Assembly: GCF_003664595.1 (NCBI RefSeq)
Contig: NZ_QXPZ01000036.1
Location: forward strand, 1 to 64,000
Direction: 5' to 3'
DNA length: 64,000 bases
DNA from: Atopobacter sp. AH10
Lineage (GTDB): Bacteria; Bacillota; Bacilli; Lactobacillales; Aerococcaceae
The notes below the pieces were generated by a model. That model did not search any database, was not told the origin of the DNA, and saw only the letters and a list, made by a program, of their open reading frames with translations. Made by a program: the position numbers and the translations under genes. Numbering within the stretch: position 1 is the first letter of the stretch; every line of letters begins with the position of its first letter. Below are positions 3,068 to 63,280 of the stretch, piece after piece.

Positions 3068-3084
3068 ATTAGTGGAAATTGAAT

Positions 3085-3298
3085 AACCTTGTTAGGTGAG
3101 GCTACTGAATTAGAGACAAGCCACTGCCCAGAAATGTCCAAAGACGCCAATGGGTCAGCAGAATTTCTCGAATTAAGGGATGTTCTAATGTGGCTGGTTC
3201 TGCCTATGCTAATCAGAGCTAAAATCGATACGATGAGGTGCAGATACCCCTAGAGATCTACTGGTAATCACACGCTCTCATTCAGCGTGTTTTTTTGC
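3085..3298 (+). ncRNA. M-box (ykoK) magnesium riboswitch
   Basis: The conserved M-box core is readable: GTTAGGTGAGGCTACTG (3091-3107), then GCCACTGCCCAGAAATGTC and the AAAGACGCCAATGGGTCA block. The 3' end is an intrinsic terminator, with stem ACACGC/GCGTGT at 3270-3291 and seven T residues. High Mg2+ is known to fold this RNA so that transcription stops. It lies directly upstream of mgtE, the classical target. Confidence 0.95.
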
Positions 3299-17149: not shown

Positions 17150-17283
17150 GTTAAAATAGAGTTTTTTTTAATAAAAAAACTCCATGCCTGAAGACATAGA
17201 GATACACATACACTGTATATTTCTCCCTCGGTAGGATATTAAGGAAAAGCCACCTACTGTCTTCGGAACATATCACTTGTCCG
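17150..17283 (-). ncRNA. L10 ribosomal protein leader (rplJL autoregulation)
   Basis: The minus-strand leader contains the conserved blocks of Firmicute L10 leaders: TTCCGAAGACAGTAGGTGG (17269-17251) and, further on, CCTTAATATCCTACCGAGG (17245-17227). The paired AGGTGG/CCTACC elements form the L10(L12)4 binding site. A GAGTTTTTTT/AAAAAAACTC hairpin near the 3' end may take part in control. L10 binding to this leader is known to limit expression of rplJ-rplL. Confidence 0.9.
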
Positions 17284-17312
17284 ATTGTACCAACAAGGGC
17301 ACAATCGGTCAA
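17284..17312 (-). promoter_or_regulatory. rplJL promoter inside a dyad
   Basis: TTGACC (-35) and TACAAT (-10) are 17 bases apart on the minus strand. Both elements lie within a nearly perfect 12-bp inverted repeat: TTGACCGATTGT against ACAATCGGACAA. The gene upstream, rplA, ends 19 bases before it. Confidence 0.8.
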
Positions 17313-37612: not shown

Positions 37613-38464
37613 ATGAAAGCTGCACTCGTCTTACAAACTGACTTTGGCTTATGTGACGGAGCTGTCAGTGCCATGTATGGGGTTGCTCTAAGCGTTGACC
37701 CAAACTTGCACATTTATGATTTAACGCATGAAATCCCTCAATACATGATCTGGGATGCGTCTTATCGCCTCTTACAGACCATCCGTTACTGGGCTAAAGG
37801 AACTGTTTTTGTCTCGGTAGTAGATCCTGGTGTAGGTACCAATCGTTTAAGTGTTGTCGCTAAAACCGCTTCAGGCCATTATATTGTAACACCTGATAAT
37901 GGTAGTCTAACCCATATACAAGAAGAAATTGGTGTCGTTGCCCTACGTCAGATCGATGAAACTGTCAATCGCCTCCCTAATTCAGGAGATTCCTACACCT
38001 TCCACGGTCGAGATGTCTATGCTTATGCCGGTGCTCGCTTAGCTAGTGGTCTCATCAGTTTCGAAGAAGTCGGCCCTGAACTAGATGTTAATCAATTAAT
38101 TCGCTTACCAATTCATCAAGCAGAAGTAGCCGATAATGGTGAAATAATAGGCTCTATTGATATTTTAGACGTCCGTTTTGGAAATTTATGGACTAATCTA
38201 GATCGCAGCATGCTTTTTGATCTAGGCTTTACTTACGGAGATAAAGTATTGGTCACTATCGCCTCAAACCGCTCTGTGGTCTATCAAAATATGCTTACCC
38301 TCAGACATTCTTTTGCTGAAACAGCTTGTGGTGACGCCCTCTTATTCATCAATTCACTAGATAAATTAGGGGTTGCCATGAATCAAGGATCCTTCGCTCA
38401 TGCCTACCATATCTCTGGTGGAGCGACTTGGCAAATTCGCTTAAAAAAAATAAAGGAGAATTAA
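37613..38464 (+). CDS. SAM hydroxide adenosyltransferase (DUF62 family)
   Basis: 283-residue enzyme of the DUF62/fluorinase-like family, which hydrolyses S-adenosylmethionine to adenosine and methionine. Typical elements are the N-terminal [17 protein letters not shown] (7-23), DLTHEIP (36-42), the VVDPGVGT motif (68-75), TPDNGSLT, and [12 protein letters not shown]. The gene starts a four-gene operon with an ECF transporter, separated by one base from the S component. This pairing suggests a link between the transported compound and SAM or nucleoside metabolism; that is inference. Confidence 0.85.
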
Positions 38465-48363: not shown

Positions 48364-50385
48364 TTAGTCCTCCTCATCTTCTTCTACTTTTTTCTTCAAA
48401 ATATCCATCAATTCTTTCTTAACTTCTTCGACGGATTTATCTTTAATTTGAGTTGCGGCATTGGATAAATGTCCACCACCACCCATCAATTCCATTATCG
48501 TTTGAACATTGAGAGTACCTAAACTCCTAGCACTAATCCCAATTCGACCGTCTTCCCTCTTCGTAATCACAAAGGAAGCTTCAATATCTTCCATAGATAA
48601 TAAGGTGTCTGCTGTCTGAGCGGCGACAACTGGATTATAAAGACGTTCTTCTGACCCTGCTGCAATACCTATTCGCCCGTCTAGAACTTCTACCCGTTCA
48701 ATCAACTCGCTACGTAAAAGATATGTATTAATATCTTCCTTTAATAATCGCTGAATCATAACGGTATCTGCTCCACAACTCTTCAAATAACTTGCGGCAT
48801 CAAAAGTTCTAGATCCCGTTCTAAGCGAGAAATTGCGAGTATCGACGATAATTCCTCCAAGTATCGCTGTTGCTTCTATTTTCGAAATTGGATCCGCTTC
48901 GTTTGATTGATATTCAAACAATTCCGTCACTAATTCCCCTGCAGATGAGGCATATGGCTCCAGATATACCAAAACTGGATTTTCTGGAAATTCTTGCCCT
49001 CTTCTATGGTGATCAATCACAACAACTTGACGACATGCCTCTAATATCTCTTGGTTACATACAATAGACGGACGATGCACATCCACCAAAACAACTAAAG
49101 TTTTTGGCGTTATTTTATCCAATAACTCGCTCGATTCCACAATATATGGTGCAATATCACTATCTTTAACAATTTCACTCATTAACTTGCGGACATCATT
49201 ATTTAACTCATCATGATTAATAGCGATATAGGCTCTTGTATTATTCATCTGTGCGATCCGCCTAATCCCTAAAGCAGATCCCAAAGCATCCATGTCAGGA
49301 TATTGATGTCCCATGACAATAACTTGGTCCGAATCCTTCATGAGCTCACGCAAGGCTTGAGCTACCATTCTGGAACGTACACGAGTTCTTTTTTCCATTG
49401 GATTCGTTTTTCCACCATAGAAACGGGATTTCTCCTCCTTGGATCTGACTACTACTTGGTCTCCTCCACGCCCCAAAGCAAGATCTAGATTAGACTGAGC
49501 CACTTGTGCTATATCATGAAAGTTATCCATATCTTCATTTTCATCAGCATAAGAAAAACCCATGCTCAATGTTAGTGGATAATTTTGCCGAGCCGTTGTT
49601 TCACGAACTGTATCTATGACTTCAAATTTTTCATTTTCCAAAATAGATAAACGTTGCCTTGTAAGAACCGCTATAAAACGATCATCATCTACCCTTTTTA
49701 AATAGATGTTGTGGTGATTTGCCCAATTACTCAACTGATTGGTCACAAAATTATTCAAGTTCGACTTGCGCCTATCACTCAATGATTGGGATATTTCATC
49801 ATAGTTATCTAAGAAAATGTGACCAAATACAATCCGTGAATCTTTATATTTTACAGCTATTTTTGAATAACGTGTCGTATCCATTAAAAAAACTGCCCGA
49901 ATATCCTTTTGAACTGACACATCAATATAGCGATGATTAGTTTCTAGGGATACTAGTTCTTCATCTTCACTTTCTTCAATCACATCTGCTAACTTTTGAC
50001 TAATTTCTGATACTGGTCTGCCTAAAATATCTTTCTTATTAAAGATTTTTTTGAAATATGGATTAGCCCACTGAATTTCCCCATTTTTGTTGTAAAGGAT
50101 AATACCAATAGGCATACGTATTAATGCCTCTTGTTCACCTTGCTTAATACGATAAGATAGGTCTGTTATATAGTTATTGGTTTGGTCAATCAAATATTCC
50201 GAGAGAAATACGAGAACCCCCACGACAATAGAGAATAGGAATAGAATAGTTAAGCCAAACTTCCAATCATGAAAAAAAGAAATAACCAAAATGATGAATA
50301 GTAAGGTCAAAATGATTAGAATAGGAATTTTAACTCTATTTGCCCGTATAAACTCTGGGAGATGATCTATTTTCCAAGCCTTCAT
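48364..50385 (-). CDS. gdpP: Cyclic di-AMP phosphodiesterase GdpP
   Basis: Membrane-bound enzyme (673 residues) that hydrolyses c-di-AMP to pApA and so sets potassium and cell-wall homeostasis. Two membrane helices (about 20-65) are followed by a degenerate PAS domain (about 85-150), a degenerate GGDEF domain (about 175-310) and the DHH-DHHA1 phosphodiesterase. Catalytic metal ligands are seen in GHQYPDMDALGS (about 359-370) and VIDHHRRG (456-463), with the DHHA1 GGGGHLSNAAT near the end. All are intact. The start is the ATG at 50385 with GAGGAG upstream. Confidence 0.96.
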   Translation of the reverse strand: MKAWKIDHLPEFIRANRVKIPILIILTLLFIILVISFFHDWKFGLTILFLFSIVVGVLVFLSEYLIDQTNNYITDLSYRIKQGEQEALIRMPIGIILYNKNGEIQWANPYFKKIFNKKDILGRPVSEISQKLADVIEESEDEELVSLETNHRYIDVSVQKDIRAVFLMDTTRYSKIAVKYKDSRIVFGHIFLDNYDEISQSLSDRRKSNLNNFVTNQLSNWANHHNIYLKRVDDDRFIAVLTRQRLSILENEKFEVIDTVRETTARQNYPLTLSMGFSYADENEDMDNFHDIAQVAQSNLDLALGRGGDQVVVRSKEEKSRFYGGKTNPMEKRTRVRSRMVAQALRELMKDSDQVIVMGHQYPDMDALGSALGIRRIAQMNNTRAYIAINHDELNNDVRKLMSEIVKDSDIAPYIVESSELLDKITPKTLVVLVDVHRPSIVCNQEILEACRQVVVIDHHRRGQEFPENPVLVYLEPYASSAGELVTELFEYQSNEADPISKIEATAILGGIIVDTRNFSLRTGSRTFDAASYLKSCGADTVMIQRLLKEDINTYLLRSELIERVEVLDGRIGIAAGSEERLYNPVVAAQTADTLLSMEDIEASFVITKREDGRIGISARSLGTLNVQTIMELMGGGGHLSNAATQIKDKSVEEVKKELMDILKKKVEEDEED

Positions 50386-50756
50386 AAGATTCACTCCTCA
50401 TAGTATTGGAAAAGTAATTAAGCCTATAAGTATCTACTATTATACCATTATTGGCTTTTTTTGGATACATATAGAACACACGTTCGCTTTTTTTAAGTAT
50501 ATTTATATCTATACGAACTTTCCTCTATAAGAGTTACTTTTTAATTATTTTGTATATTTTTTTTTAACTACATTATCAATAAAGTTTTCTTAATACCTAG
50601 CGAAAAAATTAATGAGTTTTACTCTCCCTCCCAAAAAATTTATCTATTAACTTTGAAAAGTTTAGTAAATTCTCTAGGTAAATTTTTTCTTTATAATTGT
50701 ATTGAGACACTTTTTTCTTTTTATCTAAAATGAAACGGACGCCTACTTTTTTCAAA

Positions 50757-50772
50757 TGTTTCACGTGAAACA
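50757..50772. other. parS site 1
   Basis: TGTTTCACGTGAAACA, a perfect match to the ParB/Spo0J consensus TGTTNCACGTGAAACA. Confidence 0.95.
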
Positions 50773-50799
50773 ATTCTTACACCCCTCTTTAATTCCCGA

Positions 50800-50815
50800 T
50801 GTTCCACGTGAAACA
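50800..50815. other. parS site 2
   Basis: TGTTCCACGTGAAACA, matches the ParB/Spo0J consensus with C at the variable position. Confidence 0.95.
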
Positions 50816-50841
50816 ATTCCTACATTCCTCTTTAATTCCGA

Positions 50842-50857
50842 TGTTTCACGTGAAACA
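50842..50857. other. parS site 3
   Basis: TGTTTCACGTGAAACA, perfect match. Third site of the tandem array. Confidence 0.95.
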
Positions 50858-51448
50858 ATTTATTTTCCTTCCTTTTTTGTTAATCATAAATCTTCTACTC
50901 TAAGTTTCTATCATAGCTGGGAAAGGGAAGAAACTCATATTTAGAATTAACGATTTAATTATACTGCGCTTACTAATATTCAAGTCTTAAAAGAGACAGT
51001 TTACAAAATGTATTTTTAGCACTAACATTTTTACTGATATTGCTCATAAAATTCACCAGTTCTCTATTTATTTCTTTAACAGGTGGACATAATTATTTAC
51101 TATGTCCAGGAGAGGGGGGATTTATCTTTAGTTAAAGATAAAGAGTAAATTTTAAGAGAAATAAATTTACCTTTCCCTTTTTTCTTTTCTACGTATTCAA
51201 AAGGGGTAAAGTTTTAATCAGTCACTATCTTACTACTTTTAAAGGTCCTGTCCTTTGCCTATATGTATTAAAGAGCGGTAAAGTTCAGATAGGCGAGATT
51301 AGTCATAAAAATATTATTATTCTTTAAATTCTTTTCTCTATATTATCCCCCCTTAACTTTAAATTTACATCAATAGTTAAAAGTTTGAAAAACTATAGCG
51401 AAAAGACTGGAAGAAACTCTAAGAAAGATAAAATTTTAACCAGTAGAG

Positions 51449-51464
51449 TGTTTCACGTGAAACA
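51449..51464. other. parS site 4
   Basis: TGTTTCACGTGAAACA, perfect match, about 600 bases from the array and flanked by AGTAGAG and GTCTGCTGG. Confidence 0.95.
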
Positions 51465-52026
51465 GTCTGCTGGTCATTTTTTCTTATTTAGATTTTGCTA
51501 CATAATAAATAATCCAATTTTTTAGACCCTCATCCTTATACTTAAATATCTGTTTTTGTCATACTTTTCTCTTTAAAATTTGTTTTGTAGGAATTTTTAA
51601 GTATACTCTGGATCAGCAAGTCTACCCTCTTATTTTTTTGAGTAGATTAACCTTTTATCCTTAGAGAGAAAATTCTGATAGTCTTTTCTTTGATTTAACC
51701 CAAGGGTCAATATAATATGACCTCTCTAAAAAAAGAATCAGCTCAACCCTATTTCTCTAGCTACTTGACCCATCCCCTTGGGAAAACAGTTTTAAGTGAA
51801 GAATTTTGCCAATATTTCTTCCCTCTTTTAGATCACATGACAATTTACGAATTATCTATAATCTCTAACAACTACAGTCCATCAGATAAGCCCGTCCAAT
51901 CAGAATACTTAATATCCACCATAGCAAGAGTGCAATTTTTTTATTAATGGAGCTTTTTTGGGGACGCAGGAGTTAGAATTTTGAGACTTTCCTCTTTAAC
52001 CACTAACCTGTAAATAATAAAACAAC

Positions 52027-52042
52027 TGTTTCACGTGAAACA
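52027..52042. other. parS site 5
   Basis: TGTTTCACGTGAAACA, perfect match, about 580 bases from site 4. Confidence 0.95.
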
Positions 52043-52869
52043 TTTAATATTGATTTTATAAAAATCATTCTCCTCAATGCCTATTACTTATCCCTAGCTA
52101 CACTCACGTCGAATAAATAATTACTAATTTTCTATCCCACCCCTATTCGTTTTAGTATGACTAAGCTTATAAACTTAAATTTCAAGAAGAATTGCTTGAA
52201 TTATTGCTAGTTCAACTTCACATCAGTAAATTTATTTCTAAATCATCTCTCATATCAAATGAAACTCCCACGCACAGCCCTCGCCCCACGAATAGACATT
52301 GTTTTATCCCACGTTTTTTTCATATAGTTACTTCTTGACAGGCACTAACTCCTACATTTTGTGATTAATATCCGTACATATTTTTTTACATCCTCAAAAA
52401 TTTTGTTAAGGTCACATCAATTCTTACTTCTACTTATACATAAGGTTGACTAAAGTTCTTTGGACTTTTAACAAAGTTCCATTAATAGAAAATTTTCCTA
52501 CTCTTTCTAATTCTAACTTTTTTACCTTTATATCAAAAAAAGCTTCCTCTCAATTCCAGCTCCAGCCAAGACTCTTATGCTACAAATGAAGACTATTCCA
52601 TTCAAAGTAAGTTTTTGCCTAGTTAAACTCTCTTAGATAAAAAGCTATCTCATCTTTTTTTACTTATCGGAAGTGTGTATATACACTTGTTAAATCTAGC
52701 AAAAAAAATACAAGTCGTTTCAACTTATTCCTTCGTAAGCAAAAACATGAACAGTATAAAGTTTAAACATAACTAAAAGACCTCCTCCTCAACACAAAAA
52801 TACAAGTAGATGAAAAGTTTTAAAATGGAATAATTCCTTACTCACCACAAAGAATTCCTCTTTTAAATC

Positions 52870-53160
52870 TGTGGATAAGTTTTCAAACATTACTTATCCA
52901 CAATTTTACTTTTACTTTGTATAAGGAATGATACTCTGGGATTTTTGTCAATCTACTCCTCCTTTTCACACAATTATCCACAGAATTTTCAAGAACATTA
53001 ACTTGTTAAATTGCTTGATACTATCGTCTTTTTTTCTATTTTTTTCTTTCTACAGTATTTCTTATCCCAAATTTTATCCACAACTTTTTACCAAGCGTGT
53101 TTCTTGTGAATAAGTTGCATTAACCAATAAGGTACTCATTATACACACAGTTTATCCACA
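52870..53160. other. Cluster of seven DnaA boxes
   Basis: Matches to TTATNCACA: minus orientation at 52870-52878 and 53105-53113 (TTATTCACA); plus orientation at 52894-52902, 52974-52982, 53074-53082, 53139-53147 (TTATACACA) and 53152-53160. Five are the perfect TTATCCACA. Near-matches such as TTATCCCAA (53062) add to the cluster. The sequence between them is AT-rich. Such density in 290 bases is far above chance and indicates DnaA binding. Confidence 0.88.
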
Positions 53161-53177
53161 ATAAAAAAGTTAAAAAA

Positions 53178-53205
53178 AAGTCTTTCCAAAAATATGGAAA
53201 GACTT
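53178..53205 (-). terminator. Terminator after rpsR
   Basis: AAGTCTTTCC/GGAAAGACTT stem followed by eight T residues on the minus strand, about 20 bases past the rpsR stop. It shields the DnaA-box cluster from rpsF-ssb-rpsR transcription. Confidence 0.9.
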
Positions 53206-53226
53206 TACTTTATACTATAAAGTATA

Positions 53227-53463
53227 TTAGTCGTTATTTGTGAATGGTAGTAAGCCCATTACACGAGCGCGTTTAATAGCGATTGTAAGTGGACGTTGGT
53301 ATTTTGCTGAAGTCCCTGTTACACGACGTGGCAAAATTTTACCTTTTTCGGAAATAAAACGTTTCAATAATTCTACATCTTTATAATCAATGTAGTCAAT
53401 ATGGTTAGCGGTGAAGTAGCAAACCTTACGGCGTCTACGTCCGCCTCGACGTTGTCCAGCCAT
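53227..53463 (-). CDS. rpsR: 30S ribosomal protein S18
   Basis: 78-residue small-subunit protein that pairs with S6 on 16S rRNA. The Arg-rich start ([16 protein letters not shown]), [15 protein letters not shown] and the end [16 protein letters not shown] are the family pattern. Last gene of rpsF-ssb-rpsR, with a strong terminator behind. Confidence 0.98.
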
Positions 53464-61950: not shown

Positions 61951-63114
61951 TTAAGAATGTGTACGTATTGGCGTAATCAATTGAATAAAGTTATGAGGAA
62001 TTGGGTTTGAAGGATTAGCTTCTTCCATAAAGAATGGTTTATCTGATCCATTGAAATAGAGGCTTATATCTACCCCTTTAAAAGTACGAACAGCATCCAT
62101 TAAGAAGATTGGATTGAAGTGAATAGCCACATCTTCTCCGCTAAATTCTTTAATTTGAAGGATTTCTTCCATTTTACCCACTTGCTGTTGCGAACTGTGG
62201 AAGAGAACTTTTTCTGAGGAAATGCTTAGGCAAACAGATTCTTGTTCCTCGTTATTGGCCAAAAGAGCCACCCTATCTGCTCCGTCTTCCAAATCTTTAG
62301 CAGCGACTGTTATTTTGGTTTGATAATTTTTCGGAATCAATCGACTAGTTTCTGGATAAATACCTTCTAGTATACGTGAGTATATGGCGTAATCTTGAAT
62401 TTGAAAAAGAATTTTTGTTTCATCCACTACCAAATGAACATCTTCTTCATCTTCAATAATACGAGTCACTTCTTGTAAAGATTTAGCAGGAACAACTACA
62501 GAGATACTTTCTCCTTGAGCGACCCCCTCAACTTTCACTTGATCAAGAGGAATAATACGTTGACTTAAACGATGTGAATCAGTTGCAACTGTTTTTAACT
62601 GATGATCATCTAAAAAGAATTGCACACCAGTCAAAATTGGCCGAGATTCTTTTTTGAAAACAGAAACAATGGTTTGTTCAATCATATTTTTTAACAAGCA
62701 ACCCTTAATTTGTAAACTGAATTTTTCATTCAATTCGACCATACTAGGGTAATTATTAGGATCATAGGCATTTATCGTAAAATCTGCTTGTTCAGAGACA
62801 ATTTGAACGAGTACTTTGTCTTTGGTTCGAATAGTGACTTCTTCACCAGGTAATTTACGGATAATTTCAATAAAGAATCGACCCTTAACCACCATTGAAC
62901 CTGTTTCTATAACAGTAATGCCATGCTCTAGATTCGTTGTCTCTAATTTTGCTTGAATGGTTAAATTTGAATCACTTCCAATAAAGATAAGACGATCTTT
63001 ATAGACATCTATCTTGATTCCTTCAAGAATATCGGTAGTAGTTTTACTGGCTGTTCCCCGTTGGACATTATTCAACACTTTAGTGAGGACAGATTTTTTA
63101 ATCTTAAATTCCAT
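61951..63114 (-). CDS. dnaN: DNA polymerase III beta sliding clamp
   Basis: Ring-shaped processivity factor of the replicase (387 residues, the usual Firmicute size) with three repeated clamp domains (about 1-125, 130-255, 260-385). Family stretches: LEGIKIDV (28-35), TVATDSHRLSQR (about 175-186) and the C-terminal LITPIRTHS. It follows dnaA across the origin spacer and is followed by a terminator. Confidence 0.97.
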   Translation of the reverse strand: MEFKIKKSVLTKVLNNVQRGTASKTTTDILEGIKIDVYKDRLIFIGSDSNLTIQAKLETTNLEHGITVIETGSMVVKGRFFIEIIRKLPGEEVTIRTKDKVLVQIVSEQADFTINAYDPNNYPSMVELNEKFSLQIKGCLLKNMIEQTIVSVFKKESRPILTGVQFFLDDHQLKTVATDSHRLSQRIIPLDQVKVEGVAQGESISVVVPAKSLQEVTRIIEDEEDVHLVVDETKILFQIQDYAIYSRILEGIYPETSRLIPKNYQTKITVAAKDLEDGADRVALLANNEEQESVCLSISSEKVLFHSSQQQVGKMEEILQIKEFSGEDVAIHFNPIFLMDAVRTFKGVDISLYFNGSDKPFFMEEANPSNPIPHNFIQLITPIRTHS

Positions 63115-63280
63115 GGTCGGCTCCTTTGTAAAGAAATAGATATAAATAAATAGTACTAGTAGTAGGACCTGTTAATAATGTGAAGATTTACTCCAATAAG
63201 CTGATTTTGCAAGTTTTCACATGTGGATAACTTTTGGATAAAGCTTGGCATAAGTCGTCAACTTATCCACATGTTAATAA
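63115..63280. other. oriC: oriC region: dnaA-dnaN spacer with DnaA boxes and DnaA-trio tract
   Basis: Perfect DnaA boxes lie at 63222-63230 (minus) and 63263-63271 (plus), with near-boxes TTATCCAAA at 63234-63242 and TTATTAACA at 63170-63178 and 63272-63280 (all minus). The plus strand at 63151-63166 reads TAGTACTAGTAGTAGG, a repeating TAG tract like the DnaA-trio element of the basal unwinding system in B. subtilis, followed by AT-rich sequence (ATAGATATAAATAAA). This layout is that of a Firmicute origin unwinding site. Confidence 0.75.

Follow-up and report, generated by a model that had tools for sequence, protein, structure and literature searches.

The window, i.e., the whole 64,000-nucleotide stretch of Atopobacter sp. 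AH10 DNA analysed here, contains a cluster of DnaA boxes in an intergenic region bounded by gdpP and by an open reading frame taken, by similarity, to be rpsR (Table 1). The 5' end of gdpP and the 3' end of rpsR both point into this gap, and the cluster sits at its rpsR end. The gap has a GC content of 0.293 and is, according to the list of open reading frames, the longest gene-free stretch between positions 38000 and 64000 of the window. An overlooked gene was considered and rejected, because no listed reading frame wholly inside the gap exceeds 76 amino acids and no Rfam match was obtained in it. Elsewhere, the window also holds an M-box magnesium riboswitch (3081-3244, plus strand) and a ribosomal protein L10 leader (17164-17284, minus strand), both of which are ordinary.

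Table 1. Positions of features in and around the gdpP-rpsR gap and in the dnaA-dnaN spacer
Feature	Position	Strand	Basis or remark
gdpP (c-di-AMP phosphodiesterase), left neighbour	48364..50394	-	Pfam GGDEF_GdpP, PAS_GdpP, DHH, DHHA1
gdpP-rpsR intergenic region, predicted centromere and DnaA-box region	50395..53226		2832 bp, without recognisable gene
parS 1, TGTTTCACGTGAAACA	50757..50772		motif search
parS 2, TGTTCCACGTGAAACA	50800..50815		motif search
parS 3, TGTTTCACGTGAAACA	50842..50857		motif search
parS 4, TGTTTCACGTGAAACA	51449..51464		motif search
parS 5, TGTTTCACGTGAAACA	52027..52042		motif search
DnaA box TTATCCACA	52870..52878	-	motif search
DnaA box TTATCCACA	52894..52902	+	motif search
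DnaA box TTATCCACA	52974..52982	+	motif search
DnaA box TTATCCACA	53074..53082	+	motif search
DnaA box TTATTCACA	53105..53113	-	motif search
DnaA box TTATACACA	53139..53147	+	motif search
DnaA box TTATCCACA	53152..53160	+	motif search
Intrinsic-terminator-like hairpin closing the rpsF-ssb-rpsR operon	53177..53206	-	T tail on rpsR strand
rpsR (presumed), right neighbour	53227..53463	-	open reading frame; matches at same place in relatives
dnaA-dnaN spacer, canonical unwinding half of oriC	63115..63280		boxes 63222(-), 63263(+); TAGTAGTAG 63157

In a motif search of the 64-kb window, seven exact TTATNCACA boxes were found within 291 bp (52870-53160), five of which are the perfect consensus TTATCCACA. 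These are the counts given in the initial annotation, and its other statements on the layout were likewise confirmed: the cluster is 10.1 kb from the 3' end of dnaA (10 kb claimed), it exceeds the dnaA-dnaN spacer in exact boxes (seven vs two), and a terminator-like hairpin is present where a terminator (53178-53205) had been placed between it and the rpsF operon. The region has two such hairpins, which is not above the number in shuffled sequences (1.3). The whole window contains 11 TTATNCACA boxes against 2.7 expected (11 reached in 0 of 100 shuffles), and the gap contains 7 against 0.17 expected (7 reached in none of 300 dinucleotide shuffles). No excess is seen in the window when one mismatch is permitted (66 vs 73.4 expected); the signal therefore resides in the exact sites. 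Of the 56 TTATCCACA sites in the 2.2-Mb genome, five are within the cluster. With several TTATNCACA boxes in a few hundred bp, it corresponds in sequence to the DnaA-box clusters outside oriC of Bacillus subtilis.

The five parS sites that the draft genome has at no more than one mismatch are all in the same gap; none of them appeared in the initial annotation. The first three form a direct repeat with a spacing of 42-43 bp, and the fifth is 827 bp from the first DnaA box, the nearest parS-box pair in AH10. When two mismatches were allowed over the whole genome, four parS-like places with two mismatches were obtained elsewhere and none with one or fewer, in a draft of 77 contigs in which a site may have been missed. 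Contig C38 carries a ParA-type ATPase gene followed by a ParB gene, the product of which has three Pfam ParB domains, and ParB is present in all eight genomes searched. Since all the TGTTNCACGTGAAACA sites near the origin fall in the gap, the gap is, as judged from its sequence, the centromere region. Its location in the centromere region changes what the cluster may do. The boxes and parS, however, may share the gap merely because it is free of genes.

Four further TTATCCACA sites, absent from the initial annotation, are present just upstream of dnaA, beyond the window. The cumulative GC skew (window plus 5.9 kb, 500-bp steps) has its minimum at 63000, at dnaA-dnaN; the skew is -0.152 from rpsR to dnaN and +0.183 to the right of dnaA, and the same signs are seen in all eight genomes checked. 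A search for DnaA-trio tracts of at least three units, including two TAG units, gave a match in 25 of 26 dnaA-dnaN spacers and at some point in 19 of 41 gdpP-side stretches. The AH10 gap has a single such tract, located at about 50434 and separated from the boxes by 2.4 kb, so that the absence of a trio tract at the cluster, as described in the initial annotation, holds for three-unit tracts near the cluster; a looser two-unit search gave ATCATC at 52242, 0.6 kb from the first box. The initial annotation had left two roles to the cluster, as part of a bipartite origin or as a distant cluster holding back initiation. The former is not supported: the cluster is 10 kb away, dnaA already has boxes on both sides, and no trio tract is near, and hence the cluster is not the second half of a bipartite oriC. 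A second origin was also rejected for AH10, on the grounds of the complete oriC, the skew, and the lack of a near trio tract. The regulatory role (titration or looping rather than unwinding) fits the data, namely the recurrence of the boxes in five related genera, the constancy of their fixed letters in Trichococcus (see below), the missing near trio tract, and the skew minimum at dnaA-dnaN.

Recurrence was assessed in 41 loci from six genera (g1, g5, g9, g10, g11, and g13, of which g5 includes Trichococcus ilyis and g9 an Aerococcus MAG by exact 200-base matches) and in 28 comparison loci. Of the latter, 16 represent 14 additional genera of the same family, and 12 represent six other families within the order. 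Among the 76 family genomes searched, 41 passed the gdpP threshold and 16 more came from the first search for relatives; three genomes of the six genera (G050, G067, and G083) are outside the sample. Counts were made in 38 of the 41 loci, leaving out L058 (cut off by a contig end 0.8 kb upstream of gdpP), L113 (304 bp), and L107 (contig ends before rpsR; it carries six boxes and parS), and in 26 of the 28 comparison loci (no rpsR found in L073 and L074). For five Aerococcus genomes, 3.1 kb on the gdpP side were used as the gap, G048 among them being read unflipped.

The 38 gaps, including that of AH10, contain 149 boxes against 5.6 expected (300 dinucleotide shuffles each), although the counts are not independent, 25 of the gaps being from Trichococcus (11) and Aerococcus (14). 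Boxes occur in 34 gaps, two or more in 32, and every one of the 34 box-bearing gaps also has parS. The four box-free gaps all belong to g10, in which four of the five genomes have parS without boxes, and two of the six g13 genomes have a single box. In contrast, the 26 comparison gaps have one box in total (G037) against 1.1 expected, none having two or more, and 18 of them have parS. Most comparison gaps are short, and the absence of boxes should therefore be taken as the lack of a cluster and not as avoidance. In a named scan of gdpP loci (the best 80 of 460, three of which belong to the six-genera group), none of the other 77 loci reaches two boxes in the 5 kb upstream of gdpP (a shorter stretch at contig ends), and a single box is in the gap in three of the 60 with rpsR in view. 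With parS in many of the comparison gaps, and no box cluster in these or in the named loci, parS at the gdpP-rpsR place looks older and the boxes look added. The GyrB tree has a weak backbone, with three changes of box state on the best tree; a single clade of the six genera is not rejected (p-AU 0.51), and the boxes may have been gained once or several times.

In the second Atopobacter species, A. phocae (G001, the one other genome of the genus given by the first search for relatives, a contig of which equals that of ATCC BAA-285 over the 9 kb compared), three boxes are beside rpsR, on a contig other than that of gdpP. The gap seems to be broken there by an insertion sequence, at the right end of the rpsR contig (L155), where a reading frame is presumably transposase-like. 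Adjoining gdpP is a regular array of five parS-like sites, 97-100 bp apart (G001:C49:75-483). In many relatives, a second parS is located between ssb and rpsF (L057 1211, L069 1201), which is absent in AH10.

The boxes appear to be conserved as such in Trichococcus, where six box positions recur in 8 to 11 of 11 gaps. For these 11 gaps, every box of each genome was taken in turn and the aligned letters were read in the others, which avoids picking positions for their conservation; the pairs are reused, and the counts are not independent. The eight fixed letters per box differ in 209 of 4736 cases (4.4%), the free N in 179 of 592 (30%), and the flanking letters in about 37% (36.5%), and the whole box is retained in 494 of 610 cells. 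The N thus changes about as fast as the flanks, and the fixed letters about eight times more slowly, as expected of real DnaA sites under selection. When G005 serves as the reference, the eight fixed letters of its six boxes are all retained in 9, 10, 8, 9, 1, and 7 of 10 genomes, respectively. The mean is 7.3, against 2.05 for other local 9-mers, and none of 20,000 draws of six attained 7.3. An earlier count on the six recurring positions (N differences 14/27) was replaced, because it required recurrence in at least 8 of 11 genomes, leaving out positions seen in one and two genomes, and such a choice favours N differences by construction. At about 140-175 bp to the left of the first box, seven of 12 Trichococcus gaps have a trio-like AAATAGTAATAGAAG (L042 864 and L043 924, among others); it is on the minus strand, opposite to the oriC arrangement.

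Strict conservation of the boxes is not general, since in g13 and the two Atopobacter species boxes are present but most positions are not shared. The AH10 cluster aligns with that of A. phocae at 53% identity over 470 columns, with one aligned box position in common, which turnover and separate gain would fit equally. In an alignment of an Aerococcus subgroup, two of four box positions are found in all four genomes, but the flanks are also 0.86-0.92 conserved, which makes the comparison weakly informative.

Clusters of DnaA boxes outside oriC in B. subtilis were reportedly described by Okumura et al. in 2012, and binding of DnaA to the parS region of Caulobacter crescentus is said to have been found by Mera et al. 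in 2014. The present cluster resembles those of B. subtilis in its dense TTATNCACA boxes in intergenic DNA outside oriC and in its expected action as a DnaA sink, but differs from them in sharing a gap with all the parS found. Nearness to parS alone is not new, because a few kb presumably separate the B. subtilis DnaA region trmE/jag from the soj-spo0J parS. In a table of PMC4447404, neither gdpP nor rpsR is the site of any of the 20 strongest in-vitro DnaA regions of B. subtilis.

Caulobacter and AH10 share ParABS and a centromere that carries DnaA sites and is separated from the origin by about 8-10 kb (PMC6399470, PMC6667618). As described in these sources, DnaA binds the parS region, and at low DnaA the unreplicated centromere is moved. 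AH10 has the corresponding sequence elements, i.e., boxes in an origin-near parS region and the ParA and ParB genes, but it belongs to an unrelated lineage, its five parS keep their distance from the boxes, and any effect on segregation would be hypothetical. The cisII/cisMP loci of Deinococcus radiodurans also combine boxes and parS-like repeats and are bound by DnaA and ParB, but they are on secondary replicons, act as origins, and have non-canonical boxes overlapping iterons (PMC7671480). At rctA/parS2 of Vibrio cholerae chromosome II, initiator sites and parS occur together near the origin and titration has been proposed, but the initiator is RctB, not DnaA, and the chromosome is secondary (PMC6399470). 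The datA locus of Escherichia coli is likewise a strong DnaA-box cluster, which lowers initiation, but it is IHF-dependent and promotes hydrolysis of DnaA-ATP (PMC5295017); B. subtilis is without IHF, according to PMC13220808. No report of DnaA boxes in a Bacillota centromere was found among the open papers searched, and the Deinococcus secondary replicons form a partial precedent (PMC7671480).

DnaA very probably binds the cluster, judging from its TTATCCACA boxes, a type also present at oriC of the same genome, and from the AH10 DnaA, which retains its DNA-binding domain (Pfam). Further sequence evidence comes from the parS sites, the genes for ParA and ParB, the recurrence of the boxes in related genera, and the apparent selection on those of Trichococcus. 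All this favours, at a probability of about 0.55, the explanation that this origin-proximal cluster of DnaA boxes in the centromere region is of the B. subtilis kind and would sequester DnaA after initiation. A distance of 10 kb is copied in seconds at usual fork speeds, and the fork leaving dnaA would thus copy the cluster soon after initiation. Once doubled, the sites would keep DnaA from oriC, the action assumed for the B. subtilis clusters. DnaA retained at these sites would be close to ParB and its partners, because ParB loads in the same region, and could, speculatively, couple the DnaA pool to segregation.

Sequestration is preferred because clusters of this type are reported to act so in B. 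subtilis: removal of six clusters together leads to early initiation (PMC5295017, PMC13220808), which is partly relieved when one is put back (PMC5295017), although, according to the same review, clusters with significant roles had not been identified in that species. The control of DnaA by ParA in B. subtilis is described as independent of the location of parS (PMC7614844), which argues against coupling through ParA.

It is rather unlikely that the bound DnaA acts on the centromere itself, licensing or timing ParB-parS separation as in Caulobacter (PMC6399470, PMC6667618). Such an action would be consistent with the parS in all box-bearing gaps of the six genera, with ParA and ParB in AH10, and with ParB in all genomes searched, but not readily with the 827 bp between the nearest parS and box in AH10, the 18 comparison gaps with parS and without boxes, or the large distance between Caulobacter and the Lactobacillales. 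In Aerococcus, parS is 1-9 bp from a box in four of 14 gaps (G054, G056, G046, and G052); however, random placement gives 2.0 (P 0.12), and a composite parS-box element was rejected as evidence. A bolder proposal, which should be regarded as tentative, is that the centromere of the Lactobacillales group is also DnaA-controlled, DnaA in the parS region licensing or timing ParB-parS separation after initiation, and that this Bacillota counterpart of the Caulobacter mechanism would have arisen by the addition of boxes to an older parS. DnaA on the boxes might instead form a roadblock stopping the sliding of the ParB clamp before the rpsF operon and setting the edge of the centromere domain. The boxes do lie between all parS and rpsR in AH10, G011, G010, six g13 gaps, and six of 14 Aerococcus gaps, but in 10 of 12 Trichococcus gaps parS occurs to the left as well as to the right of the boxes, and in eight of 14 Aerococcus gaps a parS is inside the box span (two spans being wide through outlying boxes), and a roadblock is quite improbable.

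The cluster is very unlikely to belong to the origin or to be a second one. The number of boxes, the AT-rich DNA, and the trio-like tracts in some of the gaps, one of which (G054) is 25 bp from a box in a mirrored oriC geometry, would agree with such a role, but the boxes on both flanks of dnaA, the remote tract in the AH10 gap, and the skew would not. The main hint of origin activity is a positive skew beside Aerococcus clusters. In four Aerococcus genomes, inserts of about 4 to 19 kb part rpsR from the boxes, which remain with parS and gdpP (G009, loci L050/L156; G049, L118; G057, L119; G055, L120). Since the four belong to one subgroup, they count as one event, or as a hotspot of that subgroup for insertions between rpsR and the boxes. 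The skew turns positive just right of the cluster and, over the inserts, is against that of the surrounding strand, in G009 even where the genes are on the minus strand; G009 also has a local skew minimum at the cluster (797,199). The positive stretch in G009 and G057, however, matches the insert and ends at rpsR, not midway to dnaA, which suits inserted DNA, whereas in G055 rpsR itself is midway and the end fits either reading. Control by DnaA of the transcription of a neighbour, or of a small RNA in the gap, is unlikely. B. subtilis DnaA acts as a transcription factor (PMC4447404), and in four Aerococcus genomes a plus-strand reading frame begins about 195-245 bp beyond the last box, but in AH10 the boxes are beyond the rpsF terminator-like hairpin and 2.5 kb from the start of gdpP, which makes control of a neighbouring promoter unlikely, and the promoter-like sites (12 vs 13.4 in shuffles) and the lack of an Rfam match give no indication of a small RNA. 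Chance or drift in AT-rich DNA, where low GC favours T/A-rich words, is practically negligible in view of the dinucleotide shuffles, the recurrence in related genera, and the slow change of the fixed letters.

One more dense TTATCCACA cluster away from dnaA is present in AH10, with four sites in 296 bp (G000:C46:58771-59066, L130) between rlmH, encoding a SPOUT methyltransferase, and an htrA-like protease gene. A box cluster is also beside an htrA-like gene in G005 and G009, whereas the examined cluster of G013 has none within its 4 kb. The B. subtilis gene yydA is presumably rlmH. Since a strong DnaA region is reported upstream of yydA (PMC4447404), the rlmH-htrA cluster may be an old one.

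The locus bears on how replication initiation is linked to chromosome segregation in bacteria. Initiator sites occur here in a centromere gap in several genera, and the relatives with parS and without boxes provide natural controls. The link between initiation and segregation is testable at this locus, as the few boxes can be changed with parS and oriC untouched. The start of replication and the separation of the copies may thus be tied to each other in AH10 and the related genera.
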